Assembly: GCF_012184425.1 (NCBI RefSeq)
Contig: NZ_VTOW01000001.1
Span: forward strand, 1,674,001-1,738,000
Reading direction: 5' to 3'
DNA: 64,000 bases
From: Candidatus Manganitrophus noduliformans
Lineage (GTDB): Bacteria; Nitrospirota; Nitrospiria; SBBL01; Manganitrophaceae
Each line of letters starts with the position of its first letter. The stretch's first letter is position 1. Below are positions 33,674 to 61,816 of the stretch, one piece after another. The position numbers were made by a program, and so were the translations under genes. The notes beneath the pieces are model-generated. The model saw only the letters and a list, made by a program, of their open reading frames with translations, did not search any database and was not told the DNA's origin.

Positions 33674-33796
33674 GACGGTCTCCTATGGTCGTATGGTTGT
33701 GGTCGGTTGCAGGGGCGATGTTTCCGCGGCCACTGGTTCATGGGGTTCTCTTCATCCCCCGCCCATCGGGCCGGTCGGAACGATTCGCGGTCTCTT

Positions 33797-33824: not shown

Positions 33825-33872
33825 GATTTCAATAATAGAAACAATCCTATTTGTGAAGGCCATTCAGCATTC

Positions 33873-37694: not shown

Positions 37695-37713
37695 TGTTTG
37701 CCTTTGTTGATGT

Positions 37714-37739
37714 CGGGGCGCACCCACGGGTGCGCCCCG
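37714..37739. repeat. CGGGGCGCACC palindrome
   Basis: CGGGGCGCACC... / ...GGTGCGCCCCG with a minimal loop, immediately upstream of the large lipoprotein gene. Forms a pair with the palindrome at 37779-37804. Confidence 0.7.
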
Positions 37740-37778
37740 TTTTCGCATTCGTATCTGTCGCAATCCAGGTGCCCAGAG

Positions 37779-37804
37779 AGGGGCGGACACGTAGGTCCGC
37801 CCCT
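37779..37804. repeat. AGGGGCGGAC palindrome
   Basis: AGGGGCGGAC (37779-37788) and GTCCGCCCCT (37795-37804) with a 6-base loop, ending in CCCCTAC. The right arm overlaps the stop codon region of the upstream gene. Confidence 0.75.
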
Positions 37805-39704
37805 ACTCGTCATCGTTTGTGAAGTCGTCTCCCATTGCAAAGAAAACAGTGCGAAGGCCTTGATTTCTTTCGTCTGTCCAAATCGCGAAAGCACGGCCCG
37901 CGCCGTCCACCGCGAGGGAAGGAGAAAGTCGACTCACGAATGTACCTGCGAGTGAATTAATCTGCGAGAATGTAAATGTAAAAGGGCTTCCATTATCGAT
38001 GCTCTTGGCGAGCCTGATCAGATTTTCACCCCGGGGCAGTTCCCGGAAGGCGACGTAAATGCCGTTGGCGCCATCCCATGCGATGCTCGGACTCTCCTGA
38101 TCGGGACTCGTTCGAATTTCTCCGAAAGAATGGTTCTGACCAAAGACAAGTTCTTCGGCGTCCAGGGTTCCCTTCGCGAAGTAGACAAGGGTGCAGCCGT
38201 CGCCACACCAATCAAGCTCCCAGGCGATATATACATTTCCTTGAGGACCCGCAGCGACCGTGGGTGAAGAGGTGAAGTCAAAGGGGTCTTCTGTCGGATC
38301 ATCTACCCGGGCGGCGGGGAGAAAGGTCGCCCCCCCATCGGTGGAAGCGGTGGCGGCGATGTTCAGAAAGAAGTTGTCGTTGATAAATCCGGAAACCTCC
38401 CATGCCACGAAAACCTCACCGGAACCAGCAATCGAGATGGCCGGCCGGGTCTGGTCGAAAGGGCTGTCATCGGTATTGACCCTTTTTGGCTCTTCGTCCA
38501 CCTGCACTCTTTGGAGAAAAATATCGGTCCCCGTATTGGGAGAGATGGATGATACATCGGACCAGGCGACGAATGCGACACCGGTCGGGGAAACCGCCAC
38601 CGTCGGGTCTTGTGGAAACGAGCCGACCATAGTGAGGGGAAGGAATTGAAAGTCAGTTTCTCCGGAAGGCCGAACATACAGCCAGATCGTCGCGCTGTCG
38701 CAGAATAAACAGGCGACGTAGGCGATATAAACACTCCCGTCCGGCCCGACCGCCAGCGACGGATCGGCAACCCCGCCATCGCTTGTGCCGACGATGACCG
38801 GCTCCTCCGGCCATCGATCTTTCTCCGAAGTCTCCGAGAAAAGAATCTGAGAACAGCCTTCTGAGCAGCCGGCGGCCCACGCGGCGTATACCTTTCCGTT
38901 GTGATATGCAACGCTCCGCTGACCGGAAGAATGAGTCGAAACGGAGTCAGGAATGGATACCGGGACGTTCTGTCCAAATTCCAACTGCAATCCCGTCACC
39001 ACCTTCACCTGCGCCGCGTCGCGGCGGTCGGGGTCGGCTTTATCGACCGCGTCGACGGTGATGGCGGTCGGCACGCCGATGTCGTTGGGGTTGGTCCGAT
39101 CGATCGGAATGACGGCCGGAGCGGTGTAGGTGCCGTCGGGGGCGATCCGGCCGGCGGTGTCGTCCCCCCCCGCAGTTCCATTGACGAAAAAGTCAACCTG
39201 AGAAGGGGCATCTTCCCCCAAGGTGAACGTTTGAGTGGCGCCGCGGGTAAGGATCGCTGCGGGCGGGTCGATCTGCAAGGGATTGATCTGAATCACCACC
39301 ATCTCAATCGTGAGGGTCACCGAGGCGCCGGAGACGAGATCGACCGTGTCGCTTCCTTGATAGCGGGCGGCGCCGGTGTTGTCGAAGGCGGTGACGTCGA
39401 AGCGCCGCGCGGGCCCCGCGGGAACCTCCAGCGCGAGGGTCGTCACTCCATCGTGATTGGCGTCGGACGCGGTGGAAAGGGGCTCCATCCCCGGCCCGGA
39501 CACATCCACGGTCACCGAGACGATCCCGGAAGGGGCGGGGGCCGCGCGTCGCGCCGCCGCTTTTTCCGCGGTATTCGTGTTGAGAGTAATCCGAACCGAC
39601 GCGGTGCCGGCGGTGTCCGAGCCCTGACAGCCGGCGAGGAATAAAACGAGAGCCGCCACCGAAAAGAGGCTGATCTGATTCCGAATCGATATTCCTGATC
39701 GCAT
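37803..39704 (-). CDS. large lipoprotein, paralogue of the giant lipoprotein
   Basis: 633 residues; signal ends in lipobox LFLAGC-Q. N-terminal beta-sandwich (~30-135), an Ig-like domain (~145-235; SQVDFFVNGTAGGDD) and a C-terminal six-plus-bladed BNR/sialidase-like propeller (~245-630). The C-terminal part parallels the previous protein (VSTHSSGQRSVAYHNGKVYAAW here, ISTVSSGQRNVAF... there; FAIWTDERNQG here, FAIWTDQRITG there). It has four pairs of nearby cysteines (CSEGC, CLFC, CGDGC) that may form disulfides. The Shine-Dalgarno is weak. Confidence 0.72.
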   Translation of the reverse strand: MRSGISIRNQISLFSVAALVLFLAGCQGSDTAGTASVRITLNTNTAEKAAARRAAPAPSGIVSVTVDVSGPGMEPLSTASDANHDGVTTLALEVPAGPARRFDVTAFDNTGAARYQGSDTVDLVSGASVTLTIEMVVIQINPLQIDPPAAILTRGATQTFTLGEDAPSQVDFFVNGTAGGDDTAGRIAPDGTYTAPAVIPIDRTNPNDIGVPTAITVDAVDKADPDRRDAAQVKVVTGLQLEFGQNVPVSIPDSVSTHSSGQRSVAYHNGKVYAAWAAGCSEGCSQILFSETSEKDRWPEEPVIVGTSDGGVADPSLAVGPDGSVYIAYVACLFCDSATIWLYVRPSGETDFQFLPLTMVGSFPQDPTVAVSPTGVAFVAWSDVSSISPNTGTDIFLQRVQVDEEPKRVNTDDSPFDQTRPAISIAGSGEVFVAWEVSGFINDNFFLNIAATASTDGGATFLPAARVDDPTEDPFDFTSSPTVAAGPQGNVYIAWELDWCGDGCTLVYFAKGTLDAEELVFGQNHSFGEIRTSPDQESPSIAWDGANGIYVAFRELPRGENLIRLAKSIDNGSPFTFTFSQINSLAGTFVSRLSPSLAVDGAGRAFAIWTDERNQGLRTVFFAMGDDFTNDDE

Positions 39705-39795: not shown

Positions 39796-41001
39796 CTAAA
39801 ACTGCACATCAATCCGAACCGGGACCGTGGGCGGCGCGCCCGCAGATCCGGAAGGGGTCGGAGGGACCAACATTCCCATCGACGGGGCCATCACCTGATG
39901 TCCGGCGGAGCCCTGCGGGATCTGCGGGGCGGCAAAAATCGTCCCGGTCGAAAGAATCGCCGCGCCGCCGTCGCCGATCGCCTCGGCCCCCGAGATCATC
40001 GCCGTCAGATCGAGCGGAAAGAGGGGAGTATCGAGAAGCGCTTTGCGGGCCAGCTCGAATTCGGGATCTTCTTCCACCGCCAGGAAGAAGGATCGGGAGG
40101 CTTCCCGATACTTGCCCTGGTCGAGATACTCAAGCCCCTGGGAGTAGAGACGAAACGCTTTGAAGTTCTTCGTATGGATCGTCCCGACCGCCGCCCGGGT
40201 CTGGCTGTCGAGGCTCTCCGGGCAGTGGCCGATCCCGCAGAGGATTTTGAAGACCAATTCTTTTTCCAGCTGGTAGAAGGTCGGCAGGTCTCCCTGAACC
40301 TCCGAGTTGGTGAGCGATTTCCCGCTCTCCGTCTGCGTGACGGCGGCGTCGAGGCGGATCTTCTCCTGATCGAGATCGAGGAAGCTGCCGGTGGTGATCT
40401 TCCCGGCGCCGAGGAGTTTCCCGACGCGGGGGGCGCTCTTGGCATCGACCAATCCAGATTGCGAGAGCTTCAATTCATCGAGAAGGGCCTTGAGCTGGAC
40501 CCGCTCCACCACTTTCAGCGTCTTGACCTTCGAGAGATCGGTAATGATCATCGCCGCCAGTCCCTTCGAAAGAGGGGCGTAGGTCTGCTGCCCCAAATTC
40601 TGAAAGGGGGAGACCGCAATCGCCCTGGCGTCGATCTTTCCGGTAAGCTCCTTTTCCTGCTGGAGGATCTCCCTTGCGGTCCGTTTGGCCTCTTCTTGCA
40701 GGAGCAGCGTCAGATATTTCGAGACCTCGCGATTTCCCTCGCTTCCCGGATCGAGCCGGACATATTGTTTCCAGGCGGCGATCGCTTTGGACGGGTCCCC
40801 GGCCCGCAGATGGCTGAGACCGAGATAAAGCGCCTCTTGCGCGCCGGCTTCTTTCCCCTCGTAGGCCTGGATGATCTCGGCATAGCGCCCCTCTTGGTAG
40901 AGGGCCTTCACCGCCGACTCCGGCCGGCCGATCTCCTGAGCCCATCCCAGCATCGGCGTCACCCATATGAAAAACACGAACAAGATTAGTTGTCGTCTCA
41001 T
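39796..41001 (-). CDS. CsgG/FlgO-like protein with TPR-like N-terminus
   Basis: 401 residues with signal peptide (MRRQLILFVFFIW, cleavage near GWA). Residues 25-110 look like TPR helices (ALYQEGRYAEIIQAYEG). Residues ~125-260 have the CsgG/FlgO core: AIAVSPFQNLG, ERVQLKALLDELKLSQSGLVD, GKLLGAGKITTGSF. A second TPR pair follows, then a Gly/Pro-rich tail ending RIDVQF. Start overlaps the upstream stop (ATGA). CsgG forms an outer-membrane pore for curli subunits; FlgO-like relatives have other envelope roles. Confidence 0.72.
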   Translation of the reverse strand: MRRQLILFVFFIWVTPMLGWAQEIGRPESAVKALYQEGRYAEIIQAYEGKEAGAQEALYLGLSHLRAGDPSKAIAAWKQYVRLDPGSEGNREVSKYLTLLLQEEAKRTAREILQQEKELTGKIDARAIAVSPFQNLGQQTYAPLSKGLAAMIITDLSKVKTLKVVERVQLKALLDELKLSQSGLVDAKSAPRVGKLLGAGKITTGSFLDLDQEKIRLDAAVTQTESGKSLTNSEVQGDLPTFYQLEKELVFKILCGIGHCPESLDSQTRAAVGTIHTKNFKAFRLYSQGLEYLDQGKYREASRSFFLAVEEDPEFELARKALLDTPLFPLDLTAMISGAEAIGDGGAAILSTGTIFAAPQIPQGSAGHQVMAPSMGMLVPPTPSGSAGAPPTVPVRIDVQF

Positions 41002-41702
41002 TGCAGTTCCTTTAGTAGGAGGTTCTCCATCCGCTCCCGCGCTTCCTGATGCCGGGCGTCGATGGCGAGGGCCTTTTGATACATCTCCAAGGCCTTCCGG
41101 TTGTTGTTGGATTGTTCAAGGGCCAACCCTTGCAGAAAAAAATCGTGGCTTGATTTCGGCATCCCCTGGGGGAGGCCGACTTTGGCAATCAATAAATCGG
41201 CCATCTGTTTCGAGAAATTTTTCTCAAGAATCGCCCGCTCGGCGGCGCGCCCTTCGAGAGCGCTTCCCTCGGCGATCCCTCGCTCGACCTCCACGATCCG
41301 GCCGTCGATCCGGAGCCCCCCCGCCAAAGAGGTATACCCCCCCATGATCAGGTATTGGGCCCCGAGCAATTTCCCGAGGCGAAGCTGGCTTTCCCGGTCG
41401 GCGATGTCGAGGCTGGCGAGGGAGAGCTCTTCCAAGATTTTTTGGAGCGACTCCCGGTCGATCAGGCGAAGGTCGGGGCGCCCCGAGAGCTGCTCCGAGA
41501 TCCGATCGGCCAGGGTGCGGCCGAGCCCCTGTGTCGCGGCGGTTTGGCCGATCCCATGGTCTTCGAATTCCAGGACGGCCACGGTCAGCAGGTTTCGTTC
41601 CGGAAGGAGAGGCGCCTCCGGACGGACCGGAGGCGCCGAGGGAGAAGCGCAGGCGGTGAACGCAAACAAGAGTGGAATCAGAAAATCAAAACGCCGTTTC
41701 AT
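40998..41702 (-). CDS. CsgG/FlgO-like lipoprotein
   Basis: 234 residues; lipobox FTAC-A soon after MKRRFDFLIPLLFA. Core motifs VAVLEFEDHGIGQT, LIDRESLQKILEELSLAS and GKLLGAQYLIMGGYT match the CsgG-type fold; the last 60 residues are TPR-like (EMYQKALAIDARHQEARERM). Shares the ATGA overlap with the gene after it and overlaps the gene before it by 17 bases, so the three are one cotranslated block. Confidence 0.75.
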   Translation of the reverse strand: MKRRFDFLIPLLFAFTACASPSAPPVRPEAPLLPERNLLTVAVLEFEDHGIGQTAATQGLGRTLADRISEQLSGRPDLRLIDRESLQKILEELSLASLDIADRESQLRLGKLLGAQYLIMGGYTSLAGGLRIDGRIVEVERGIAEGSALEGRAAERAILEKNFSKQMADLLIAKVGLPQGMPKSSHDFFLQGLALEQSNNNRKALEMYQKALAIDARHQEARERMENLLLKELQ

Positions 41703-43650
41703 TTCCCCCTACTTCCTCTAACACTTTTTGATCCTTCTGGACGGCGGACGTGCGCTCCGTCAGCTTTCCGTAAGAGAGTCCTTCCTCCACCTCCACGATT
41801 TCGAGAAGGCCGACCCGCTTTTTCTTGTGGCCAATCGTCTTCCCATCGACCACGATCGCTTCCCCTTCATCGATGATCTTCAATCTGGTTCCCGGTTGGA
41901 TCCCATGGCGGGCTCCGAGGTTGATGATGACCTGGTTCCCCTCCTCGACGGAGGCGATCTTCCCTTTCAGCGGATATTGCTCCTTGATCTTTTTGCCGAG
42001 CGCCTGCGCCGTCTGATCGGCGAGGGCCAACAGATTCTTCTGCGGACCCATCTCGTCGGCATGGGTGATCTTGATCGCCGAGGTCTCCGGATCGACCAGC
42101 CGAAGGCTCAGCCGGACCCCCTCCGGAATCTGCACCAGGCTGCCGGTGACGATCAGACGGGCCGAAAGGAGCTTCCCGAGCTTGAGGGCCGTTTCGGGAT
42201 CGGCCAGTTCGGAGGAGCCGAGATTCAACTCGGTCAGCAGCTTGTCGAGCATCTCCCGCTCCACCACCGCAACCCGGCCGCCGGCGGAGAGCCGCTGCGT
42301 CATCTCGGCTTGTAGGAGCTCCGTCATCCCCTCGCGGAGGAGCCCCCCTCCCACCCGCTTCATCCCGAGGAAAGCGACCGTCATCGGCTTGGACGACCAG
42401 GGATCGGTCGGCGGAACCTCCGAGACCTTCCCTTTCTTAAACCGCTCGGCCAGATCGGCGACCAGACCGTCGACCCGCTTCTGCCGTTCCATATCCTCCT
42501 TGAAGGCGAGGTGTTGCTCCATCCGCTTCATCAGGTGTTTTGCGATCTCGTCTTCCGGATCGACGCTCAACGCCTCCTGATAGAGGGCGAGCGCCTTCTG
42601 AGGCTGCCCCTGCTTCTCGTAAAGAACGCCGCGGTTCGCGAGGATCTCGGGAGAGTAGGGGTTGTGGACGACCGCCTCCTGGTACATCTTCTCGGCCATC
42701 GCATATTGTCCCTGTTCGGAGTGAATCCGCCCCGCGTTGTTGAAAGCGGTCGCCCGTTGCCAGTCGCTGGAGAGCTTCCCCTCGGCGGCGCGGGTGAACT
42801 CGGTCAGCGCCTCCTGCTGATTCCCCTGCATGGCGAGCACATTCCCCTTTACCAGATGGACCAGGCCGTTGTTCGGATCTTCCTTTTCGACTGCTTCGGC
42901 GATCGAGAGCGCCTTGTCGGTCTCTCCCTTCTGAAGATGGACTTCGGCGAGCCCCTCTTTCCCCAGGATCGCCTCGGGCGATTTCAGCTGGGCAATCTTG
43001 GAGAACTCCGATTCGGCGCGGTCGAGCTTCCCTTCTTTCAAAAAGACATGTCCGAGGCCGGCTGCCGCCTGCGCATCCTTCGGGTTCGACTTCAGCGCGC
43101 TTTCAAAGAGCGCCTTCGCCAGGGTGGTCTTCTTCGCCTGAAGTCCCCGCTGCGCCACGGTGGTGATGAAACGGGCGGAAGAGGGGCCTCCTCCCTCCAA
43201 CACGTCGGTGATCCGGCCGCCGGGGCCGAGGATATAGGTCGTCGGGAGGATCACTTTCACTTCATACGCCCCGAAGACTTTTCCGTCATCCCGCACCACC
43301 GGGAAGGGGAGAGGATGTTGTTTCAGATAAGGATCGAGCGTCTTGGCATTGTCTTGCGTTACGGCGAGGATGGCGATCCCCGCCTTCTCGTATTGCGCGT
43401 AGAGCCCCTTGAGGTGATCGAGCCCCTCCCGCGCCGGCTTGGAGCCGAGCTTGAAGAAATAAACCAGGACCATCGGTTTTTTCTTCACCGATTCCAACGC
43501 GGCGAAGCCCGGGGCGGTCTCCCCCTTCTTGAGGGCGGCTTCGGCGGTTCCGACCGTCCCGATCAGAAAGAGGAAGAGCGCGGCTACCATCCCCCATACG
43601 ACGCGCTTCCGGTGGCCGCTCTTTTTTCCAGGCCGGCTCATTGTCTTCAT
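41686..43650 (-). CDS. exported fusion: cysteine-less thioredoxin-like domain, TPR array, CsgG-like domain
   Basis: 654 residues with signal peptide (VVWGMVAALFLFLIGTVGTAEA). Residues 40-170 follow the TlpA/AhpC thioredoxin fold (GETAPGFAAL, LVYFFKLGSKPA, VILPTTYILGPGG with cis-Pro), but the CxxC site is replaced by KLGSKPA with no cysteine. Residues 175-400 hold about seven TPRs (FNNAGRIHSEQGQYAMAEKMY). The C-terminus is CsgG/FlgO-like (VAFLGMKRVGG, EREMLDKLLTELNLGSSEL, GKLLSARLIVTGSLV) plus a small beta domain (GKIASVEEGNQVIINLGARHG shortened here). ATG overlaps the kinase stop by ATGA. Confidence 0.75.
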   Translation of the reverse strand: MKTMSRPGKKSGHRKRVVWGMVAALFLFLIGTVGTAEAALKKGETAPGFAALESVKKKPMVLVYFFKLGSKPAREGLDHLKGLYAQYEKAGIAILAVTQDNAKTLDPYLKQHPLPFPVVRDDGKVFGAYEVKVILPTTYILGPGGRITDVLEGGGPSSARFITTVAQRGLQAKKTTLAKALFESALKSNPKDAQAAAGLGHVFLKEGKLDRAESEFSKIAQLKSPEAILGKEGLAEVHLQKGETDKALSIAEAVEKEDPNNGLVHLVKGNVLAMQGNQQEALTEFTRAAEGKLSSDWQRATAFNNAGRIHSEQGQYAMAEKMYQEAVVHNPYSPEILANRGVLYEKQGQPQKALALYQEALSVDPEDEIAKHLMKRMEQHLAFKEDMERQKRVDGLVADLAERFKKGKVSEVPPTDPWSSKPMTVAFLGMKRVGGGLLREGMTELLQAEMTQRLSAGGRVAVVEREMLDKLLTELNLGSSELADPETALKLGKLLSARLIVTGSLVQIPEGVRLSLRLVDPETSAIKITHADEMGPQKNLLALADQTAQALGKKIKEQYPLKGKIASVEEGNQVIINLGARHGIQPGTRLKIIDEGEAIVVDGKTIGHKKKRVGLLEIVEVEEGLSYGKLTERTSAVQKDQKVLEEVGGNETAF

Positions 43651-44924
43651 GGCGTCTTCTCCTCTTCTGCGAGTTTTAAATCGACCGGGACCTTCTCTCC
43701 GGAGACGACGGTGATCGTCGCTTCCAGCGGGTGGTACCCTTCTTTCCTCAAGACCAATTCATGCGAGCCGGCGGGGAGATCGAGCATCAGCGGGGTGAGC
43801 CCCTTCGGTTCGCCGTCGATGAGCACCTCCGCGCCGATCGGCGTCGTCGTCAGATCGACCTGGCCGATCTGAGGGGCGGCGACCGCCCTGGTGGCCGCTC
43901 CATTTCCTAGGCTATTGGCGCCGGCGCCCGTCGGATCGGCCGGCGCTTGATTGGGAGCCAAACGCCACCAACCGATCAGAGCCAGAAGCCCGATGACGGC
44001 GATGGGCGCCCAAACCCAATACCGGCCCCGGCCCGCAGGAGTTGGAAGGGGCGCCTCTTGGCTCCCGGAGAGGGCCATGGTCGGACGCTCCTCCGCGGCC
44101 TGCTCCCGATGCGTCGACAGCCCGGCAAGCGCATCGGCCATCTCCGCCCCGGTGGAGAAGCGTTGACCCGGTTCCTTCTCCATCGCTTTCATCACGATGT
44201 CGCTGAGCGGTTTTGGGATGTCGGGGGAGAGGCTCGCCGGCGGAGCGGGGTTTTTGGTCAACACCTGGTGCATGATGGCGGCGACGTTGTCCCCCGGAAA
44301 GGGCTTTTGACGGGTCAGAAGCTCGTAAAGGAGGGCGCCGACGGAGAAAAGATCGGAGCGTCCATCGACCCGCTCTCCCTTGCATTGCTCCGGGGACATG
44401 TACTGCGGCGTGCCGAGGAGGTGGTCGGTCTGCGTGTGGCCCCCTCCGTCCAGTCGCGCGATCCCGAAGTCTGTCACTTTAACCGTCTGCTGCTCCGAAG
44501 TCAAAAGAATATTTCCCGGTTTGATATCCCGATGGATCACCCCTTTGGAATGGGCGAAGTCGAGGGCGCGGCAGATGTCGATTCCGATCCGGACGATCTG
44601 ATCGACGGTCAGCGGCGTCCCTTTTTTGAGAAGCTGGCCGAGCGAAGTCCCCTCGACATATTCCATGACAATGTAGGAGGTGCCGGTGGCGGTGTCCTCT
44701 CCGGTATCGAAGATGGTGACGATGTTCGGATGGACCAGCCTACCCAAGGCGAGGATCTCCCCCTGGAAGCGCTTGCGGGTCTCCTCCGATGCTTCGAACA
44801 GCTCCGGGCGGAGGCACTTGAGAGCGACCTGCCGGTGGATCTTGGCATCGCTGCCGAGGTAGACGATGCCCATGGCGCCCCGTCCGATTTCAATTAAAAT
44901 TTCGTAACGTCCGAGTGATTTCAT
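43647..44924 (-). CDS. transmembrane Ser/Thr protein kinase with extracytoplasmic PEGA domain
   Basis: 425 residues. Kinase domain 6-270 with glycine loop GRGAMGIVYLG, Lys in VALKCL, catalytic HRDIKPGN, DFG in VTDFGIARL and the APE-like MSPEQ. One transmembrane helix (WVWAPIAVIGLLALIGWW, ~302-320), then a ~90-residue C-terminal part ending in a PEGA domain (TTPIGAEVLIDGEPKG, GSHELVLRKEGY). A complete Hanks-type kinase that could sense envelope conditions through PEGA and phosphorylate cytoplasmic targets. The FHA activator at 30404 is an attractive downstream reader (inference). Confidence 0.92.
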   Translation of the reverse strand: MKSLGRYEILIEIGRGAMGIVYLGSDAKIHRQVALKCLRPELFEASEETRKRFQGEILALGRLVHPNIVTIFDTGEDTATGTSYIVMEYVEGTSLGQLLKKGTPLTVDQIVRIGIDICRALDFAHSKGVIHRDIKPGNILLTSEQQTVKVTDFGIARLDGGGHTQTDHLLGTPQYMSPEQCKGERVDGRSDLFSVGALLYELLTRQKPFPGDNVAAIMHQVLTKNPAPPASLSPDIPKPLSDIVMKAMEKEPGQRFSTGAEMADALAGLSTHREQAAEERPTMALSGSQEAPLPTPAGRGRYWVWAPIAVIGLLALIGWWRLAPNQAPADPTGAGANSLGNGAATRAVAAPQIGQVDLTTTPIGAEVLIDGEPKGLTPLMLDLPAGSHELVLRKEGYHPLEATITVVSGEKVPVDLKLAEEEKTP

Positions 44925-44935
44925 TGTTTGATCCG

Positions 44936-46444
44936 TTATTTTTTCCCCTCAATGGCTTTCAGCCATTGCGCCACCTGGACCGCCTCCGGGGAGGCCGGTT
45001 TTAATTCCAGGTATCTTTTGTAGTGCAGCGCCGCTTTTCGAGGATTCCGCAGCACACTATCATAAAAAGTGCCGATGTTAAAGTGGGCGTCGGCATATTT
45101 CGGATTCACCTCCAATGCCTTGACGTAGGCTTGCTCGGCTTTCTTCATCTCTTTCATCCTCCGAAAGACTTCACCGAGGTTGTTGTGGGCCTTCGCCGAT
45201 TGGGGCCAGAACCGGATGCTTTCCGCCAGAAGATCGGACGCCTCGGGATACCGCTTTGCTTCGGCGAGGAGGGTCCCCATCTGAAAGAAGGTCTCTCCAA
45301 GGAATCGCTTCACCTCCCGGCTGGGGACGGCGAAAGCGATTCCCCGCGCGTCCTGGAGCGTTCCCAACACCACGCCGACGACTTCTCCCTGTTTATTCAG
45401 AAGCGGGCCGCCGCTGTTTCCGGGGTTGATCGCCACGTCGGTCTGAAGGACCGGGCGATTCCCAAGAACCCGCTCCGGCGCGCTGATGATCCCTTGCGAG
45501 GCCGAGTGGCTGAGACCGAAGGGACAGCCGACCGCCATCACCGACGCGCCGGCTTTGGAGTTGTCGGACTGAGCGAAGGAGAGCGGTTCGGTTTCTTGAA
45601 GCGCAATCTGAAGGAGGGCCAGGTCGAGCGCGCTGCTGACCGATAAAACCGTTGCAGGATATTTCGCGCCGTTTTGGAATTGGACCGTCAGGCGGCTTGC
45701 CCGATTGGCCTGATGACCGCTCGCCAGGATATATCCCGCTCCGACGATAAAGCCGCTTCCTTCGATCTTCCCCTGTGTCGTCTCGCCTTGCACACAGACC
45801 ACCTGAGGAAAGGAGAGGACCGGTTCCGGGGGGGCCGTCCGAGCGATCCCCCCCGGCGGAAGAGCCAGGGCCGGAGCGACCGGCGCGGGAGGCATCGGGA
45901 CGGGGAGGGGCGGCCCGGCCAGTTCTCCGGTAAGGTGAATGTCGCCGTCCCCTTCCTCTTCCGCAATTCCTTTTCCCCGGGCCAGCTTGTCCCCCGGGAC
46001 GTCGGTCAGTTCGGCGAGCCGCATCTGCGCCCGGGGGGCGAGGGGATGGGTCGGGGCGAGGCTGAGGAAGCGGCGGTAATGAAAGATCGCCTGAACGTTG
46101 TTGGCCTTCTCATAAGAGTAGATGTTCGCTAAGTTGTGATGGGCCTTGAAATGGTTCGGATCGATCCGGACCACCTCCCGGTAGGAGGCGACCGCCTCTT
46201 CAACCTTGTTTTGTTTCTGGAGAATGACCCCCCGCCGGAAAAGCGCCTCGGTGTTCTGCGGATCGAGCTTGAGGGCGGCGTCGAGCGATTGGAGGGCATC
46301 GTCCAGCCGATTTTGGTCGTAGGCGATCAATCCCTCTTCGAGGTGGGTCGGTCCGACCGCGTCGGGCCGAAGCTGCCGGCTGCATCCGGTAAAGAGAATT
46401 CCGGCCGCCAAAAAAAGAAGAATGCTTCTAAAGAGTTGTTCCAT
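44936..46444 (-). CDS. lipoprotein with TPRs flanking an HtrA-like (S1C) serine protease domain
   Basis: 502 residues from ATG 46444 (GAGGTGA upstream); lipobox LFTGC-S. N-terminal TPRs (~30-130), a Pro-rich linker (~170-200), trypsin-like domain (~205-385), then three more TPRs (~390-480). The catalytic triad is visible: His in ILASGHQAN, Asp in SALDLALLQI, Ser in NPGNSGGPLLN. No PDZ domain. Anchored in the envelope it could process or chaperone exported substrates of the operon. 11 bases separate it from the kinase gene. Confidence 0.85.
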   Translation of the reverse strand: MEQLFRSILLFLAAGILFTGCSRQLRPDAVGPTHLEEGLIAYDQNRLDDALQSLDAALKLDPQNTEALFRRGVILQKQNKVEEAVASYREVVRIDPNHFKAHHNLANIYSYEKANNVQAIFHYRRFLSLAPTHPLAPRAQMRLAELTDVPGDKLARGKGIAEEEGDGDIHLTGELAGPPLPVPMPPAPVAPALALPPGGIARTAPPEPVLSFPQVVCVQGETTQGKIEGSGFIVGAGYILASGHQANRASRLTVQFQNGAKYPATVLSVSSALDLALLQIALQETEPLSFAQSDNSKAGASVMAVGCPFGLSHSASQGIISAPERVLGNRPVLQTDVAINPGNSGGPLLNKQGEVVGVVLGTLQDARGIAFAVPSREVKRFLGETFFQMGTLLAEAKRYPEASDLLAESIRFWPQSAKAHNNLGEVFRRMKEMKKAEQAYVKALEVNPKYADAHFNIGTFYDSVLRNPRKAALHYKRYLELKPASPEAVQVAQWLKAIEGKK

Positions 46445-46456
46445 CAATTCACCTCT

Positions 46457-47518
46457 CTAATCCAAGATCGGGTAACCCGATTTCGCGACGGCGAGTCCCT
46501 TCACGTCGCCGTAGGGGCTCGGGCCTTCGCCGTTCATCCCCGGACGGGGGCTCTTATCGGAGAAGCGGACGATGTCCCCCTTGTGCGGGAGGGTGTTTCC
46601 CAGGACGCGCGCCTTCGAGAATTTTTCCGAGACGAAGACCACGGCCAGCTCTCCGATCGGGTTCTCGATGACCCCGACGACCTGATTGGTCTCCGGATCG
46701 GTCAGGACCTTCTTGACCGAGAAGAGCGAGAGCCGATCGCCCACGTGGACCTGCGCATTGGCGCCGGCGTTGATGTAGACCAAATTCTCTTCCAGGTGAA
46801 TCACCTTCCCCAATCCGGTCGAATGGGTCCGGAGCCGTTCCTGGACCGCCCCGATGATAAAGCCGAGGGAATCCTGAATCGTCTGCCGGGTTGCTTTGCC
46901 GAGGGGCGTTTTGTGAAAGGCGTCTCCGCCGAAAGTGAGGGTGGGAAAATTCAGATCGACGGCGATCGCTTTCTCCCAGGCCCGCCCTTCCGAGCGGTAG
47001 GAATGAAGGATCTCCCCGGTGGAAGTGTCGATGATCCGAAGATCGATCGCCACGTGTGCGGCGGTGAACTCGGCCGACGCTTTCGGGAAGAGCCAGGTGA
47101 AAAAGCCGGCCCGTCCGCCGGCCCCGACCGCTTTCTGCTCGAACTCGGTCACCTCGCCGACAATCAGATAATCGACCCCCAACAGCTGCCCCACCTGAGC
47201 CGCCGTCTCCTTCGTCACCAATTTGGAGGCGGAGAGCTCCTGCTCACGCATGATCTGGGAGAGGATCGCCCGCTCGACGACGACCACTTTTCCGGTGTTG
47301 ATCAATTCCGTGACGACCTGGGCGGCCAGCCCTCCGCCGATGTCCCAGCCCCCGTAGACCTGAGCGAACCGGTCGGTGGCGCCGAACCGGGCGACCGCCA
47401 CGCGGACCTTCCCCGCGGGACCCGCGGCGATCGGCTCGGCCCAGGCCGGCGGAAGCCCCAGGCTGAGAGAGCAGAGGAGGGCGATGACGAAGGATTTAAA
47501 ATGGTATCGGGTCTTCAT
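46457..47518 (-). CDS. CsgG-family outer-membrane secretion protein
   Basis: 353 residues from ATG 47518 (GGGAGAG upstream); signal peptide MKTRYHFKSFVIALLCSLSLG, cleaved near AWA. This is the most CsgG-like of the four: VRVAVARFGATDRF, WDIGGGLAAQVVTELINTGKVVVVERAILS (given by position 47260-47345), GQLLGVDYLIVGEVTEF, VAIDLRIIDTSTGEILHSYR. A ~110-residue beta-rich C-terminal addition (VYINAGANAQVHVGDRL) resembles FlgT-like/OB folds. There is no lipobox cysteine as in E. coli CsgG, so it may be periplasmic or pore-forming without lipid. Likely export component for the small secreted proteins upstream in the operon. Confidence 0.82.
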   Translation of the reverse strand: MKTRYHFKSFVIALLCSLSLGLPPAWAEPIAAGPAGKVRVAVARFGATDRFAQVYGGWDIGGGLAAQVVTELINTGKVVVVERAILSQIMREQELSASKLVTKETAAQVGQLLGVDYLIVGEVTEFEQKAVGAGGRAGFFTWLFPKASAEFTAAHVAIDLRIIDTSTGEILHSYRSEGRAWEKAIAVDLNFPTLTFGGDAFHKTPLGKATRQTIQDSLGFIIGAVQERLRTHSTGLGKVIHLEENLVYINAGANAQVHVGDRLSLFSVKKVLTDPETNQVVGVIENPIGELAVVFVSEKFSKARVLGNTLPHKGDIVRFSDKSPRPGMNGEGPSPYGDVKGLAVAKSGYPILD

Positions 47519-47550: not shown

Positions 47551-48027
47551 CTAACATCGTCTATTCGATTCGTTGATGATGTTGACATTGACCTGACTGT
47601 TGATGCTCCCCTCGTTGTTTTCCACATTCGCTTCGTTGCTCGAATCGATCAAGATATCCCCCGCGATGATCAGGCCGCCGTCGTCGGTGACCTTTTCCAG
47701 CCGGCTTCGGGCCCGGTCGGCCGCCGTGCACTCCGCCTCGGGCGGAAGCGACGGGAAGATGTTCGCCCGCACCCGGATCGATTCCTCATCCCGCTGCTGG
47801 CGCCTTTTGATGTCGCGGATGGTTGCCTTCAACTCTTCTTCTTCCTTTTCTTTTTGTTCCTGTTCGGGGGTTTTCGGTTGTTTCTCTTCCGCTTCTTTTT
47901 TTGCCTCTTCCCGATCCCTCTCCTCGCTCTGGATGGGAGGGGCGCCGTGCGTCGGTCCGATCTTCCCCCCGAGCAGCAGGGCGATCAGCGCGAATCCGAG
48001 CGAGGCGACGATTTTTTTCGTTTCCAT
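47551..48027 (-). CDS. exported, charged coiled-coil protein with N/S-rich C-terminus
   Basis: 158 residues; GGGAGGGG before ATG 48027; signal peptide MET-KKIVASLGFALIALLLGG. Residues 35-85 are almost wholly Glu, Lys, Gln and Arg and should form a coiled coil. The last 45 residues are polar and beta-prone (GGLIIAGDILIDSSNEAN, SINSQVNVNIINESN), similar in composition to the C-termini of the two small secreted proteins upstream. Not a recognised family; possibly an assembly factor or nucleator of the same polymer. Confidence 0.6.
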   Translation of the reverse strand: METKKIVASLGFALIALLLGGKIGPTHGAPPIQSEERDREEAKKEAEEKQPKTPEQEQKEKEEEELKATIRDIKRRQQRDEESIRVRANIFPSLPPEAECTAADRARSRLEKVTDDGGLIIAGDILIDSSNEANVENNEGSINSQVNVNIINESNRRC

Positions 48028-48085
48028 GAGATTCCCCTCCCGCGTCCGGAGGGGCGTGAGGATGATCCCACGCCCCTCCCGGTTC

Positions 48086-48463
48086 CTACTTGTTGTTGCT
48101 GTTGCGGTTGACGGTGCTCAGATCGCTGCCGTTGATCTCGGTCTTGCCGGTGATGTTCGCCGAGTTCGATTGCGCGATATCGCCGCTGTTTCCGACCACG
48201 CTCCCGACGGAGTTCCTCTGGAAAGTCTTGTTGCCGGTGACGACGGCGCTGTCTTTGATGTCCTTGATCACCTGGTTGCCGACTCCCTTGGCCTGATCGC
48301 CTCCGACGTTGTCGCTTGCTTCGCGAATGTCGTTACCGGCCGCCTTGACGGTTTGATTGACCTCTTTGCTGTCATCGCAGCCGAAGAGGCAGATCGCTTT
48401 GCTTTCCATCGCCGTCCCGAAAACCAGGGCCAATCCCATCACTGTCGCTACGAATGTCTTCAT
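48086..48463 (-). CDS. small secreted polar protein, copy B
   Basis: About 125 residues from ATG 48463 (ATG 48469 also in frame; AGGGGG upstream favours 48463). Signal peptide MKTFVATVMGLALVFGTAMESKA, then CLFGC, a helical middle (DIREASDNVGGDQAKGVGNQ) and a C-terminal ~55 residues dominated by Asn, Ser, Gly, Thr (NSVGSVVGNSGDIAQSNSA, DLSTVNRNSNNK). Strong paralogue of the next gene upstream. The polar, repeat-like tail is reminiscent of curlin-type amyloid segments, but the canonical curlin repeat is not present. Confidence 0.72.
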   Translation of the reverse strand: MKTFVATVMGLALVFGTAMESKAICLFGCDDSKEVNQTVKAAGNDIREASDNVGGDQAKGVGNQVIKDIKDSAVVTGNKTFQRNSVGSVVGNSGDIAQSNSANITGKTEINGSDLSTVNRNSNNK

Positions 48464-48560
48464 TTTCATTTCCCCCTTTTATTTTAGAAGTCGTTGTTTT
48501 AGGTTGTCGTTCCCGCTTGATCGGAGAGACCCGGGCGCCGCGCCCGGGTCCCGCGCCGGA

Positions 48561-48944
48561 CTATTTGTTGTTGCTGTTGAAGTTGTCCGTGCTCAGATCA
48601 CTGTTGTTGATTTCGGTTTTGCCGGTGATGTTGGCGGAGTTCGATTGGGTGATGTCGCCCTTGTTGAAGAAGACGCTGCCGACCGAGTTGCTCTGGACCG
48701 TGGTGTTGCCGGTGACGACGGCGCTGTCTTTGATGTCCTTGATCACCTGGTTGCCGATTCCCTTGGCCTGGTCGCCGTTGACGTTGTCGCTTGCTTCGCG
48801 AATGTCGCGGCCGGCCCCTTTGGCGGTCTGATTCACGGTGGTGCTGTCATCGCATCCGATGAGGCAGATCGCCTTGCTCTCCATCGCGGTTCCGAAAACC
48901 AAAGCCAGTCCCATCGCGGTTGCCACTAATGTTGACTTCTTCAT
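48561..48944 (-). CDS. small secreted polar protein, copy A (first gene after the sigma-54 promoter)
   Basis: 127 residues, ATG 48944, GGGGGG 8 bases upstream. Signal peptide MKKSTLVATAMGLALVFG...SKA; mature protein begins ICLIGCDDS with a CxxxC-like pair, then DIREASDNVNGDQAKGIGNQ and an Asn/Ser-rich tail (QSNSVGSVFFNKGDITQSN, NSDLSTDNFNSNNK). About 75-80% identical to copy B by eye, indicating tandem duplication. Its position directly behind a sigma-54 promoter suggests it is the most highly expressed product of the run, as expected for a structural subunit. Confidence 0.75.
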   Translation of the reverse strand: MKKSTLVATAMGLALVFGTAMESKAICLIGCDDSTTVNQTAKGAGRDIREASDNVNGDQAKGIGNQVIKDIKDSAVVTGNTTVQSNSVGSVFFNKGDITQSNSANITGKTEINNSDLSTDNFNSNNK

Positions 48945-49365
48945 TTTTGTATCCCCCCTGTGGATGTTGATTTTGTGAAGAGCGCCGGCGGCCCATCCGC
49001 CGATTCCTCATTCACTTTCTTTTTTGCGTTCACGGACAGGGGGTATAGCAAGGGGTGTGCCAATTTCTTTGAAGATGCTTTTTTGTGAAAGGGAGGCGAA
49101 AAACGGGTCGTCTCGATTTTGCGGCTCCATCGATGGCGTCCATCCCCGCTTGGACTTTCTGGTTCCTGGAAGAAAAATTATGGATTCCGGAAAAAAGAAG
49201 AGAGGGGAGAGGAAGAGGATCAGGGAAAGCGGTCGCGCGTCGGTTTCCACTTGGCACGGAAGATACAGTGTATCTGAAGATGTTCATCCTCATTACGATC
49301 ACGAGCCTAAGAAGGAAGGCCCTCTTTCATCTGCCGAAGGTCTCCTTGGGATTTGCTAAATGGGG
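48945..49365 (-). other. 421-bp intergenic region with sigma-54 promoter
   Basis: Lies between the stop of the sigma-54 activator gene and the first small secreted protein, all on the minus strand. It contains the -24/-12 promoter at 49048-49062 and a leader of about 90 bases. The ~300 bases upstream of the promoter are where activator-binding sites would be expected; I saw no clear repeated operator. Short overlapping reading frames here look spurious. Confidence 0.6.
49048..49062 (-). promoter_or_regulatory. sigma-54 (-24/-12) promoter
   Basis: On the minus strand the sequence reads TTGGCACACCCCTTGCT: TGGCAC, five bases, TTGCT. It matches the TGGCACG-N4-TTGCW consensus at every invariant position (GG at -24, GC at -12). 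Transcription should start near 49037, about 93 bases before the ATG at 48944. Confidence 0.85.
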
Positions 49366-51438
49366 CTAACGGATGTCGCGCCCGGTCCGTAAATTCAAGG
49401 TCCGGATGAGCCGGGCGAGATAGGTGCGTTGAAGTCCCAATATCTCGGCGGCTTTGGTCTGATTGCCGCCGGTTTTGTGAAGGGCGTCTTGAATGACCGA
49501 CCGTTTGTATTGCTCCAGCGCTTCATGAAAGGCCTGCGGTTCTCCGCCGACCAGAACCTTGGCGGTCGATTCCTCCTCCGGCAGAATAATGTCGTCGGGG
49601 GTGATGATCCGGTCTCGATCCAGGACGACCGCCCGCTCGATGACGTTCTTTAACTCGCGGATGTTTCCCGGCCAGCTATATTCGGCCAGGAGGGTAATCG
49701 CCTCCCGGGTGATCGCCGGCTTTTCTTTTTTGCATTTCATGCTGAAGAAAGCGAGGAAGTGGTCGACCAGCAGGGGAAGATCGTCGAAGCGTTCCGAGAG
49801 GGGTGGAAGCGTGAGGGAGATGACATGGAGGCGATAGAAGAGATCGCTCCGGAACTTGCCGGATGCGATCTCTTTTTTTAAATCCCGATTGGTTGCGGAG
49901 ACGACGCGCACGTCGATCGGAATCGCTTCCCGTCCGCCGACCCGTTGCACCTCCCGCTCCTCCAATACCCGGAGAAGTTTGGCCTGCATCGTCGGGGAGA
50001 CCTCTCCGATCTCATCTAAAAAGAGGGTGCCGCCGCTCGCCGTTTCGAAGATCCCCTTCTTCTGAGCGAGGGCGCCGGTGAAGGCCCCCTTTTCGTAGCC
50101 GAAGAGTTCGGCCTCCAGAAGGGTCTCGGAGAGGGCGGCGCAGTTGATGGCGTAGAACTTTTGATCCCGCCGCAGGCTGCATTGATGGATCGCCTTGGCG
50201 AAGAGCTCTTTGCCGGTCCCGGTTTCCCCGACGATGAGGATGGTCGAGTCGACGGGAGCGATCCGCTCGATCTGCTCGTAGAGGATCTGCATCTTGGGGC
50301 TTTTCCCGATAATGCCGTGAAAGTCCGATTCTCTTTGGATCGCCCCCTTCAGCTCCTCGTTCGCCTGGGCCAGCGCTTTGTTCTCCATCGTGTAGCGGAG
50401 GAGCTGCCGATGGGTCTCCCGTAATTCCCGGACGTGATTGAACAGAGGCGGAATCATTTCCAGTCGCGCCTGGACGATTTCCGGCGACTCTCTCCGGGAG
50501 GGTTTCGACTTCCAGGTGAAGCGGTAGCGGGAGTAAGGGGCGTTGAAGAATTGCCCCCGTTCCAGGGTGACGGTCAGCGGACCGGACTGAAGGGTTCCCC
50601 CCTTGACGATTTCATATGCGCTGTTTTCCTTTTGATACCGTTCCGGATCCTCCTCCACTTCAGGGGCGAGGATCTTGAGTTCTCCCTCGTGGGGCTGGAG
50701 AATCAGCCCTTCCATCATCGCGGGGTGATCGGGAGGCGTTGAGAAAATCTCCGTCCGAAGGGAGACCGGCCTGGCGATGATCACCTCCCTTTTTGAGACG
50801 TTTTCGATGACGGCGAGCCGGCCGTCTCTTTTTTGAATCTGGTATCCTCCGAATTCCCGGACAAGGTTCTGGAGCTTGAGTTGAGAAACCTCCTCGGTGC
50901 AGCGGGCCTCCTCGACGACCGGAAAGAGCTTCGTGAGCCCCTCATAGTTCCCGCGGATAAACCCGAAGTTGCCGAGAATCGGCTCGACGTTCGGTCCGAA
51001 TTGGGAGAGCAAGATCGCCTCGGGGCGCTGGGTTTCGGAAGGGGGAAGACACTGCAGCTTGAAGTAGTTGGCGAAGCCGGTGGCCCAAAGATTGGAGCAG
51101 TAGAGCGCCTGCTCCATCTGATTCTGAAGCTTCGCAATAATCTCCAGGACGGAGGGGCCGTAGCCCGATTGGAAATACTCTTTGGCCGCCAGGTAGGTGA
51201 TCTCTTTGGTCCCGCCGGCGTTTTCGGCGGCGAAAATTAAATTCTTGAGGATGTGATGCGGAACCCAGTTGTTGTGGTCAGACAGAAACGCCTTTGGGTC
51301 GACAATCGGATTGAGGCGGTTCTCCCCCGATAAAATCTCGTGGTAGTCGATGTCGTCCCCTTTCCCGATCCGCTCCAGATGAAGGATGAGCATTCGGGTG
51401 AGAAGACAGGTCGTCCAGGGGGTTTCTTGGTCCATCAT
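49366..51438 (-). CDS. sigma-54-dependent transcriptional activator with uncharacterised sensory N-terminus
   Basis: 690 residues; ATG 51438, or the next codon ATG 51435. The N-terminal ~340 residues (FLSDHNNWVPHHILKNLIFAAEN, FPVVEEARCTEEVSQLKL) are not a receiver, GAF or PAS domain that I recognise. A coiled-coil linker leads to a complete AAA+ domain: Walker A GETGTGKE, GAFTGA loop, Walker B GGTLFLDEIGE, R-fingers FRSDLFYRL, and a C-terminal HTH (NQTKAAEILGLQRTYLARLI). It is upstream of and codirectional with the sigma-54 promoter at 49048 and is its most likely activator. The N-terminal domain probably binds a small ligand. Confidence 0.88.
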   Translation of the reverse strand: MMDQETPWTTCLLTRMLILHLERIGKGDDIDYHEILSGENRLNPIVDPKAFLSDHNNWVPHHILKNLIFAAENAGGTKEITYLAAKEYFQSGYGPSVLEIIAKLQNQMEQALYCSNLWATGFANYFKLQCLPPSETQRPEAILLSQFGPNVEPILGNFGFIRGNYEGLTKLFPVVEEARCTEEVSQLKLQNLVREFGGYQIQKRDGRLAVIENVSKREVIIARPVSLRTEIFSTPPDHPAMMEGLILQPHEGELKILAPEVEEDPERYQKENSAYEIVKGGTLQSGPLTVTLERGQFFNAPYSRYRFTWKSKPSRRESPEIVQARLEMIPPLFNHVRELRETHRQLLRYTMENKALAQANEELKGAIQRESDFHGIIGKSPKMQILYEQIERIAPVDSTILIVGETGTGKELFAKAIHQCSLRRDQKFYAINCAALSETLLEAELFGYEKGAFTGALAQKKGIFETASGGTLFLDEIGEVSPTMQAKLLRVLEEREVQRVGGREAIPIDVRVVSATNRDLKKEIASGKFRSDLFYRLHVISLTLPPLSERFDDLPLLVDHFLAFFSMKCKKEKPAITREAITLLAEYSWPGNIRELKNVIERAVVLDRDRIITPDDIILPEEESTAKVLVGGEPQAFHEALEQYKRSVIQDALHKTGGNQTKAAEILGLQRTYLARLIRTLNLRTGRDIR

Positions 51439-56416: not shown

Positions 56417-58600
56417 ATGGATTTGAAGCGGCGTGACTTCTTGAAGGTGGTTGGGTTGGGGGCGGCGGGGTCGATGCTTCCCGGATGCGGGGGAGAGACG
56501 GCGAAGCTGATCCCCTATGTCTTGCCGGATGAGGAAATCGTTCCGGGGGTCGCCAACTGGTACGCCTCGGTCTGCCGGGAATGCGAGGCGGGGTGCGGGA
56601 TCATCGTCCGGGTGATGGAGGGGCGGGCGAGGAAGATCGAGGGGAATCCCGACCATCCGTTGAATCGGGGAAAGCTCTGCGCCCTGGGGCAGGCGAGCCT
56701 GCAAGGTCTCTACAACCCCGATCGGATCCGCGGCCCCCTTCAGCGCGACGGCGAACGGGGGGAGGGGCGTTTCAAGCCGATCCCTTGGGAAGAGGCGATG
56801 TCGCGCTGGGTGTCGGCGCTTCAAAAACATCCGGGCGGCGCCGTTCTGATCAGCCGGCCGGTCCCGGGGACGCTGGCCGGTCTCTTCTCCACCTTCATGA
56901 AGGAAATTTCGGGAACGGTTTTCTTTTATGAACCGTCGGCGGAGCGGCCGTTGCGGGCGGCGAATCGGAAAAGTTTCGGGATCGATTTTCTTCCCGACTA
57001 CGATCTGGCGAACACGACCTATCTTCTCTCCTTCGGGGCGCCGTTTCTCTCTCATTGGCTCTCCCCGGTTCATTTCGGCGCGGCCTATGGTCGGATGCGC
57101 CAGGGCCGGCCTGAGGTCCGGGGCCGGTTCGTTCAGGTGGAGCCGCGTCTCTCGTTGACCGCCGCCAGCGCCGACCGCTGGGTTCCGATCCGCCCCGGAA
57201 CCGAAGGGCTCCTGGCGGTCGCGATCGGCCGGCTTATTCTGGAGGAGGGGCGGACGAATCTGCCGAGGGGTGATCGAAGCCGTTTTGAAAAGTTTTATGC
57301 CTCCTTTTCAATCGACCGGATCGCGAACGAAACGGGGGTGGCCGAGGAGGAGATCGTCCGGCTGGCGCGCGAATTCTACACCGCCGCCTCCCCCCTGGCG
57401 ATCGGCGGGGGAATCGCCTCGGAGCAGACCAACGGGACCGACACCCTGGTCGCGATCAATGCCCTCAACCTCCTGGTCGGGAACATCAATCGACCGGGAG
57501 GAATCCGTTTCTTCCGGCCTTCCGATTTTCCCGCTTCGAGCGCGGAAGTCGTCGGGGAGCAGGCGCTTCTCGATCTGAAGGGGCCGTCCAAGAAAGCGTC
57601 GCGCTCCGTTTTGATGCTCTATCAGGCGAATCCGCTCTATACCCTTCCTCCCTCGACGCAATTCCGGCAGGTTTTCGAGGAGGCCGACTTGGTCGTCAGC
57701 TTCAGCCCGTTCCTCGATGAGTCGACCGCCATGGCCGATCTGATTCTCCCCGACCATTTCTTTTTGGAGTCGTGGGGGGATCATGTCACCGAGGGGATCG
57801 CTCCGGCGGCGGGGCTGGCGCAGCCGGTGGTGATTCCGCGCTACGATACCCGCCCGGTCGGCGATCTTTTCCTCGGCGCCGCGAACCGTTTCGGGGGAGG
57901 GGTGAAGGAGCGGCTTTCCTGGACCGATTATAGGACGATGGTCCGGGAGCAGTGGCGGGATTTCTTCGACCGCCGGCAACCGGGGCAGCCGTTTGAGGCC
58001 GCGTGGGTCGAGGCGCTTCAAAAAGGAGGCTGGTGGAAACCGGAGGGGAAGCCGGTCTCGATTTCTCAACGGGGGGCGCCGAGCGCGGCGGAGCCGGCCC
58101 GGTTCGAGGGGAGCGAGAAGGAGTTTCCGTTTTACTTCTATCCCTTCCCGTCGATGGGACTCCATTACGGACAGGGCGCCAACCGCCCCTGGCTTCAGGA
58201 ACTTCCCGACCCGATGACGACGGTCGTCTGGGGAAGCTGGGTGGAGATCAACCCGAAGACCGCGCAGGAGTATGGATTGGCCGAGCGGGATCTGGTCCGG
58301 GTGATCTCCCCCTACGGCGAGATCGAGGCCCCGGTGGTCTACTTTCCGGGAAATCCGCCCGACCTGATCAGCGTCCCGATTGGGCAAGGCCACCGCGCCT
58401 ACGGACGTTATGCGGAGGGGCGGGGGGTGAATCCGCTCGCCCTGTTGGCGCCGCTCATCGATGCTCCGTCGGGGGCGCTGGCGACGGGAGCGACCCGCGT
58501 CCGGATCGAGCGGACCGGAAGAAAGGGGCGGCCGGTTCTGGTCGACCAAACGGGACAGGGAACGAGAAGACATACCGAAGGAGGAGAAGGAGAGGCTTAA
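56417..58600 (+). CDS. molybdopterin-oxidoreductase-like subunit (ActB N-terminal half), Tat/lipoprotein signal
   Basis: 727 residues. Twin-arginine signal KRRDFLK followed by a lipobox-like MLPGC-G. An N-terminal 4Fe-4S site is complete: CRECEAGC then LC about 27 residues later. The body follows the MopB fold (WEEAMSRWV, VEPRLSLTAASADRWVPIRPGTEG shortened by position 57140-57210, LNLLVGNINRPGG). No cysteine or selenocysteine is seen at the usual Mo ligand position. In Alternative Complex III this part is fused to the ferredoxin part in ActB; here they are separate genes. Confidence 0.85.
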   Translation: MDLKRRDFLKVVGLGAAGSMLPGCGGETAKLIPYVLPDEEIVPGVANWYASVCRECEAGCGIIVRVMEGRARKIEGNPDHPLNRGKLCALGQASLQGLYNPDRIRGPLQRDGERGEGRFKPIPWEEAMSRWVSALQKHPGGAVLISRPVPGTLAGLFSTFMKEISGTVFFYEPSAERPLRAANRKSFGIDFLPDYDLANTTYLLSFGAPFLSHWLSPVHFGAAYGRMRQGRPEVRGRFVQVEPRLSLTAASADRWVPIRPGTEGLLAVAIGRLILEEGRTNLPRGDRSRFEKFYASFSIDRIANETGVAEEEIVRLAREFYTAASPLAIGGGIASEQTNGTDTLVAINALNLLVGNINRPGGIRFFRPSDFPASSAEVVGEQALLDLKGPSKKASRSVLMLYQANPLYTLPPSTQFRQVFEEADLVVSFSPFLDESTAMADLILPDHFFLESWGDHVTEGIAPAAGLAQPVVIPRYDTRPVGDLFLGAANRFGGGVKERLSWTDYRTMVREQWRDFFDRRQPGQPFEAAWVEALQKGGWWKPEGKPVSISQRGAPSAAEPARFEGSEKEFPFYFYPFPSMGLHYGQGANRPWLQELPDPMTTVVWGSWVEINPKTAQEYGLAERDLVRVISPYGEIEAPVVYFPGNPPDLISVPIGQGHRAYGRYAEGRGVNPLALLAPLIDAPSGALATGATRVRIERTGRKGRPVLVDQTGQGTRRHTEGGEGEA

Positions 58601-59323
58601 ATGGTGGAATATCGAGATCAGAATGCGCCGCCGGGAGGACCGTATCAATGGGGAATGGTGATCGACCTGGACCGCTGCACCGGCTGCGAAGCGTGCGTCG
58701 TCGCCTGCAAAGCGGAGAACAATATTCGGATCGCCGGGGAGGACGAAGCGGCCCAGGGGCGGGCGGTCTACTGGATTCGGATCGAGCGCTACTGGGAGGG
58801 GGAGTACCCGAACGCGCAGCTCAAGTTCATGCCGGTCCTCTGCCAGCATTGCGGCAACGCCCCGTGCGAGCCGGTCTGTCCGGTCTACGCCTCGTATCAC
58901 ACGCCGGACGGGCTCAACGCCCAGGTCTACAACCGCTGCGTCGGCGTCCGCTACTGCGGGAACAATTGCCCCTACACCGTCCGCTACTTCAACTGGTTCG
59001 AGCCGCACTGGGACGAGCCGCTCAACGAGCAGCTCAATCCCGACGTCACGGTCCGCTCGGTCGGCGTGATGGAAAAGTGCACCTTCTGCGTCCAGCGGAT
59101 TCGGGGCGCGCAACAGACCGCCCAGAAAGAGGGTCGAAGGGTAAAAGACGGCGAGGTGACCCCGGCCTGCGTCCAGAGCTGTCCGACCGAGGCGCTCGTC
59201 TTCGGCGACCGGAACGACCCCGAAAGCCGGGTCTCCAAGCTCGCCGAGAGCGACCGCGGCTTCGGCCTGCTGGAAGAGCTCGGAACGAAGCCGGCGATTA
59301 CGTATTTGAAGAGGATAAAATAA
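58601..59323 (+). CDS. four-cluster ferredoxin-like subunit (ActB C-terminal half)
   Basis: 240 residues, ATG directly adjacent to the previous stop. Cysteine groups: CTGCEACVVAC, CQHCGNAPCEPVC, CVGVRYCGNNC and CTFC plus CVQSC, enough for four Fe-S clusters as in DmsB/PsrB/ActB. It would link the MopB-like subunit and the cytochrome on one side to the membrane subunit NrfD/ActC. No separate signal, so export probably relies on the Tat signal of its partner. Confidence 0.9.
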   Translation: MVEYRDQNAPPGGPYQWGMVIDLDRCTGCEACVVACKAENNIRIAGEDEAAQGRAVYWIRIERYWEGEYPNAQLKFMPVLCQHCGNAPCEPVCPVYASYHTPDGLNAQVYNRCVGVRYCGNNCPYTVRYFNWFEPHWDEPLNEQLNPDVTVRSVGVMEKCTFCVQRIRGAQQTAQKEGRRVKDGEVTPACVQSCPTEALVFGDRNDPESRVSKLAESDRGFGLLEELGTKPAITYLKRIK

Positions 59324-59335
59324 AAATTTTTCAAT

Positions 59336-59394
59336 GTAGGGGCAGGCCCCCTGTCTTCATCATCAAAATCATCAATGCGGGGGGCCGCCCCTAC
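59336..59394. repeat. GTAGGGGC...GCCCCTAC palindromic repeat inside the respiratory operon
   Basis: GTAGGGGCaGGCCCCC on the left pairs with GGGGGCCGCCCCTAC on the right around an A/T-rich centre of ~25 bases. It occupies the gap between the ferredoxin and NrfD genes and is the longest copy of the dispersed family in this window. Confidence 0.8.
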
Positions 59395-59410
59395 CAGTGA
59401 TTAAAAACCG

Positions 59411-61807: not shown

Positions 61808-61816
61808 GAGACCACA

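Follow-up and report, generated by a model that had tools for sequence, protein, structure and literature searches.

The window, a stretch of 64,000 nucleotides from the genus of Candidatus Manganitrophus, within which all positions are counted unless another locus is named, contains on its minus strand a tandem pair of genes for small secreted proteins, A and B, which an initial annotation had picked out as a duplication (Table 1). The duplication is borne out by two open reading frames of equal length whose products are 83% identical from end to end. So are the signal peptide and the CxxxC pair ascribed to them, as an S-x-A cleavage site and the cysteines C27 and C31 are found across 24 homologues, in all of which the cysteine pair is invariant together with M1, A25, V76 and G96. 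The family varies least in its signal peptide and CxxxC, and the tails drift. The tails were described as polar and poor in aromatic residues, and indeed N, S, G, T and Q make up 48-50% of the mature part, which contains 2-3 aromatic residues and no proline. A and B are real genes, because the dN/dS of copy A is low between congeners (0.03-0.08 for the whole gene; 0.03-0.13 for the mature part alone). This constraint is stronger than expected of an idle disordered tail, and a dN/dS of 0.03-0.08 in a protein of disordered composition suggests that A reaches an ordered, assembled state.

Table 1. Features of the locus, all on the minus strand, by position in the window
Feature	Position	Strand	Remarks
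Rest of the conserved operon	39796..46447	(-)	trypsin/TPR, Ser/Thr kinase-PEGA, thioredoxin-fold/TPR/CsgG, short CsgG, TPR/CsgG
CsgG-domain + FlgT_C protein, no lipobox	46457..47518	(-)	putative outer-membrane export/anchor ring
Third secreted protein	47551..48027	(-)	E/K-rich segment, conserved C100, beta-like tail, C-terminal Cys; candidate nucleator/anchor
GC-rich stem-loop, no U-tract, between B and third gene	48046..48082	(-)	z -3.3
Small secreted protein B	48086..48469	(-)	127 aa; paralogue of A
GC-rich stem-loop, no U-tract, A/B gap	48526..48552	(-)	z only -1.7; candidate mRNA processing/stabilising hairpin
Small secreted protein A	48561..48944	(-)	127 aa, CxxxC, polar tail; putative structural subunit
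Sigma-54 (-24/-12) promoter TGGCAC-N5-TTGCT	49047..49062	(-)	5' end 118 bp upstream of first small gene
Sigma-54 enhancer-binding activator	49366..51438	(-)	Sigma54_activat 3.7e-72; adjacent in the genus

Two structural claims fared less well. The tails had been called repeat-like, for which the window proteins give no significant support, since their self-similarity does not stand out against shuffled sequences (p = 0.09 and 0.32) and values of about 0.01 are reached in a few relatives only; nor did beta-alternation reach significance in the small proteins of the window. The proposed helical centre stands for the two window proteins, both of which have a significant helical moment (z 3.1 and 2.5), but does not extend to the family as a whole. 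AlphaFold2 modeling of the family gave a centre without helix and low confidence throughout (pLDDT 42.8); this model is unusable and therefore no fold search was made with the small family. The family is absent from both Pfam, against which all 24 members were searched, and NCBIfam; a profile search of the PDB produced chance-level matches only and thus no solved relative. Because these searches were empty, no known soluble periplasmic family is matched either, and the small proteins showed no relation to curlin or HfaA. Among 396 Nitrospirota genomes the family occurs in one order only, which includes Candidatus Manganitrophus, and it is previously undescribed. The gene tree, in which several branches are long or unresolved, sets apart a divergent paralogue type that lies next to the third gene of the locus in four genomes. 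Judged from these sequences, the two types may correspond to a major and a minor subunit.

The surroundings of the small genes are more informative than their sequences. The unit at this locus is larger than the pair that was noted, and the third gene and the CsgG-domain gene belong to it too. Every homologous locus examined has the same order of one to three small genes, the third gene and then the CsgG-domain gene. By sequence the three components occur together in 12 of the 18 genomes of the order. A thirteenth cassette genome, G006, represents a third family and was recognised by synteny, its homologues standing at 56% for the CsgG protein and at 42% over 97 residues for the third protein. 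In this genome the place of the small proteins is taken by a 140-residue secreted protein with abundant N, S, H and D, which is dissimilar to A and lacks the cysteine pair, yet sits behind a sigma-54 activator and a promoter with one mismatch. That the slot and the kind of protein are kept while sequence similarity is lost is more what one would expect of a polymer subunit than of an enzyme. Conversely, genome G009, which belongs to the genus of G013, has neither small genes nor third gene, CsgG gene or promoter, and retains the five downstream genes. Because they were lost jointly in G009, the small, third and CsgG genes and the promoter behave as one unit that is separable from the genes downstream. 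A plasmid search was negative. As an aside, the place of the lost cassette in G009 (L082, 1-10600) adjoins a region encoding a large protein whose start is haem-binding-like, possibly a multihaem cytochrome.

The promoter upstream of A matches the sigma-54 consensus exactly and is the sole such match in the window. The congeners and a second family keep it some 66-124 bp ahead of the first small gene, distances that shift where an upstream codon is the annotated start, and the promoter of G006 lies at about 80 bp. In G013 the small genes are split by inserted genes and copies of the promoter travel with them; the genes between the small-protein copies (L025, 4121-7239) include aquaporin-like and arsenate-reductase-like ones. 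The adjacent activator is probably the regulator of the cassette, and the one in the same position in G006 is a different protein. The N-terminal 370 or so residues of the window activator have no Pfam match and presumably form a sensor domain. Taken together, these arrangements speak against the notion that A and B are secreted proteins peculiar to the lineage, whose function is unrelated and which lie upstream of a CsgG-domain gene by chance. While the small proteins indeed lack a family match and are narrowly distributed, as such a reading would have it, linkage in three families, loss as a block and conservation of the promoter make it an improbable one.

Stem-loops of 9-17 bp that lack a run of U residues follow the first small gene in 6 of 6 congeners and in most copies of the second family. 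Their position is conserved but their sequence is not, and some gaps have none. In the cellulosome operon comparable hairpins downstream of abundant subunits set the stoichiometry via selective RNA processing (PMC4423207). By analogy, A and B would be made in excess over the machinery encoded behind them.

The remaining genes of the operon persist in G009 without the cassette and are thus separable from it. They are strictly conserved; the Ser/Thr kinase with PEGA domain is of the Hanks type, and the thioredoxin-fold protein, which is fused to TPR and CsgG domains, appears to have lost its CxxC site and has GSKP instead. Further along the same strand (30302-39704) are genes for proteins of 633 and 600 residues without Pfam match, a 1305-residue beta-helix/DUF1565/Big protein and a TPR protein with a beta-barrel (BBP2) domain, and homologues of several of these also succeed the operon in relatives. 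On the other side of the locus a molybdopterin oxidoreductase, NrfD-like and cytochrome bd-like genes lie in a row (56417-63073) and form a respiratory cluster that may merit attention in an organism that oxidises manganese.

Could the small proteins then be secreted peptides or precursors, with a signal, toxin or metal-binding function and the CxxxC as a metal or redox site, that are matured by the trypsin-like protease of the operon? Small size, tandem copies, the invariant CxxxC and the protease gene would all suit such a role. However, G009 keeps the protease, kinase and TPR genes without any small gene, the cassette contains no immunity-like or transporter gene, the syntenic protein of G006 lacks the cysteine pair, and purifying selection acts on the tail in the congeners. 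We consider this the least probable of the explanations weighed here.

The CsgG-domain protein of the cassette matches Pfam CsgG (PF03783) at 4.7e-30 with 104.9 bits against a cut-off of 20.8. It does not reach the NCBIfam CsgG equivalog cut-off, and scores 25.4 bits against the NCBIfam HfaB equivalog, for which the cut-off is 300. The main rival to an export function is that the protein is a ring-forming periplasmic scaffold of the FlgT/LpoB kind rather than a pore, and that the small and third proteins are its partners in an envelope complex, located in the periplasm or at the inner face of the outer membrane. Several observations are in line with this. A Foldseek search with the model of the protein, whose confidence is moderate (pLDDT 65.6), gave FlgT at 1.9e-15 as compared to CsgG at 3.4e-8; FlgT (3w1e) and the flagellar LPHT ring rank first, and LpoB and PelC match too. 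FlgT_C is among the Pfam matches, just under the cut-off. The window protein and its close orthologues lack a lipobox cysteine, whereas the CsgGs of G009 and of a further curli genome, G010, have one. In other parts of the phylum, the distant CsgG-like proteins among the matches listed have LPP20/FlgT-like neighbours and nothing beside them that evidently corresponds to the small proteins. Moreover, the operon encodes further CsgG-domain proteins, which are unlikely all to be pores.

Then again, in hhalign the protein matches the canonical CsgG of G009 and G010, from the same order, with a probability of 98.3%, and this match runs through the region that corresponds to both pore hairpins. The model has long strands predicted there, although the tips are of low confidence and FlgT matches better. 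In addition, FlgI is present in 17 of the 18 genomes irrespective of the cassette and is encoded on another contig in the window genome (C5 versus C1). Because of this independent distribution and separate location, a flagellar role of the cassette was dismissed. A scaffold would also leave unexplained why the secreted subunits are multiplied and variable in sequence, and why the cassette occurs where curli genes do not. On balance we regard it as unlikely, if still the foremost competitor of a role in export.

The third protein and all its homologues, even the distant one of G006, end in a cysteine. The initial annotation had likened its tail to those of A and B, for which we find weak support: a profile-profile match between the two families is limited to the tails, with an E-value of 0.003 and a probability of only 10%. 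A PDB profile search with the third family gave chance-level matches only. Weak Pfam matches, and matches in the phylum at E-values of about 1e-4, fell mainly within the E/K-rich N-terminal half and were disregarded.

What is the relation of the cassette to curli? A full canonical set of curli genes exists in just two genomes, G009 and G010, neither of which has the cassette. G009 has a complete canonical curli operon with CsgE, CsgF, the lipoprotein CsgG and several curlins. G010, which belongs to the family of G006 and has no cassette, contains csgF, csgG, a match to curlin repeats and a CsgE-like reading frame beside csgF; in the family search CsgE was recovered from G009 alone, and the frame in G010 lies next to csgF and csgG. 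Conversely, a genome-wide search found CsgE, CsgF and curlin repeats (PF07012) in none of the 13 cassette genomes. Because these components were tested and are missing, the cassette is not a member of curli. The resulting alternation of cassette and canonical curli genes inside the order is suggestive rather than proof, since the two curli genomes amount to two sister contrasts, G010 is only 82% complete, and the one-sided chance probability, calculated by hand, is 10/153 = 0.065 uncorrected for phylogeny. Matches to a sigma-54 promoter at the curli operon of G009 were no better than chance.

All this leads us to suggest, with a probability of about 0.58, that A and B are paralogous non-curlin subunits of a surface polymer or adhesive coat which is exported and assembled in a manner resembling curli or a holdfast anchor. 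We favour surface-polymer subunits because the cassette is conserved, contains a CsgG-like protein, has a dedicated promoter and is present where curli is missing. The annotated role as subunits of an extracellular polymer thus gains from the linkage to CsgG, the subunit-first gene order, the sigma-54 promoter, the stem-loops and the alternation with curli, but loses the argument from internal repeats. In such a system the sigma-54 promoter would switch the cassette on, and the stem-loops behind the subunit genes would keep the level of subunit mRNA above that of the machinery. A and B would cross into the periplasm unfolded via Sec; a ring of the CsgG-like protein would pass them through the outer membrane or hold them there, and they would assemble outside the cell. 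The third protein, with its similar tail and two conserved cysteines, one of them at the C-terminus, would be a candidate nucleator or anchor.

Why would such a cassette matter? CsgG-domain proteins greatly outnumber curli: in a survey, 171 of 601 Pfam CsgG matches came from curli systems (PMC3521004). Few of the others have a known cargo. At this locus one of them comes with defined candidate substrates, a promoter and, in G009, a natural loss experiment. The host genus includes chemolithoautotrophic manganese oxidisers that produce Mn oxide nodules in culture, and the text describing them does not mention curli or CsgG (PMC9040806). A surface polymer is a plausible, if speculative, part of these nodules. 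The bolder proposal, that a minimal export cassette with a CsgG-like protein only and subunits unrelated to curlin replaces curli in the order and builds the nodule scaffold in Manganitrophus, appears doubtful to us; the link to the nodules is a speculation drawn from how the organism lives (PMC9040806), and some families that carry the cassette are not, from this analysis, known to oxidise manganese. The proposed function of A and B as surface-polymer subunits may be judged against the systems that they resemble.

The rodlins (RdlA/RdlB) and chaplins of Streptomyces are, like A and B, tandemly encoded small secreted surface proteins rich in Asn and Gly, but they are Gram-positive and are not known to involve a CsgG protein, and the small proteins have no Pfam match to either family. 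FlgT, of the H-ring/LPHT ring of sheathed flagella, shares its middle and C-terminal domain architecture with the CsgG-like protein and is its best fold match; it differs in having an N-terminal domain, which was not detected in the CsgG-like protein, and in that the distribution of the latter is not tied to flagella. The holdfast anchor of Caulobacter, which consists of the secreted CsgA-like HfaA, the CsgG-like outer-membrane protein HfaB and the surface protein HfaD (PMC6707917), likewise combines a small secreted protein, a CsgG-like protein and a further protein. Different from it, the CsgG-like protein of the cassette scores far under the HfaB cut-off and the small proteins match no NCBIfam model. 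Curli (csgBAC-csgDEFG) is set apart by its curlin repeats, CsgE and CsgF and by a CsgG that is a lipoprotein, whereas the cassette has a non-lipoprotein with an FlgT_C-like domain, an N-terminal CxxxC in its subunits and sigma-54 control. With curli, however, the cassette shares small Sec-exported subunit paralogues rich in N, S, G and Q and a CsgG-family protein encoded in the same operon, and within the order it alternates with curli at the level of genes.
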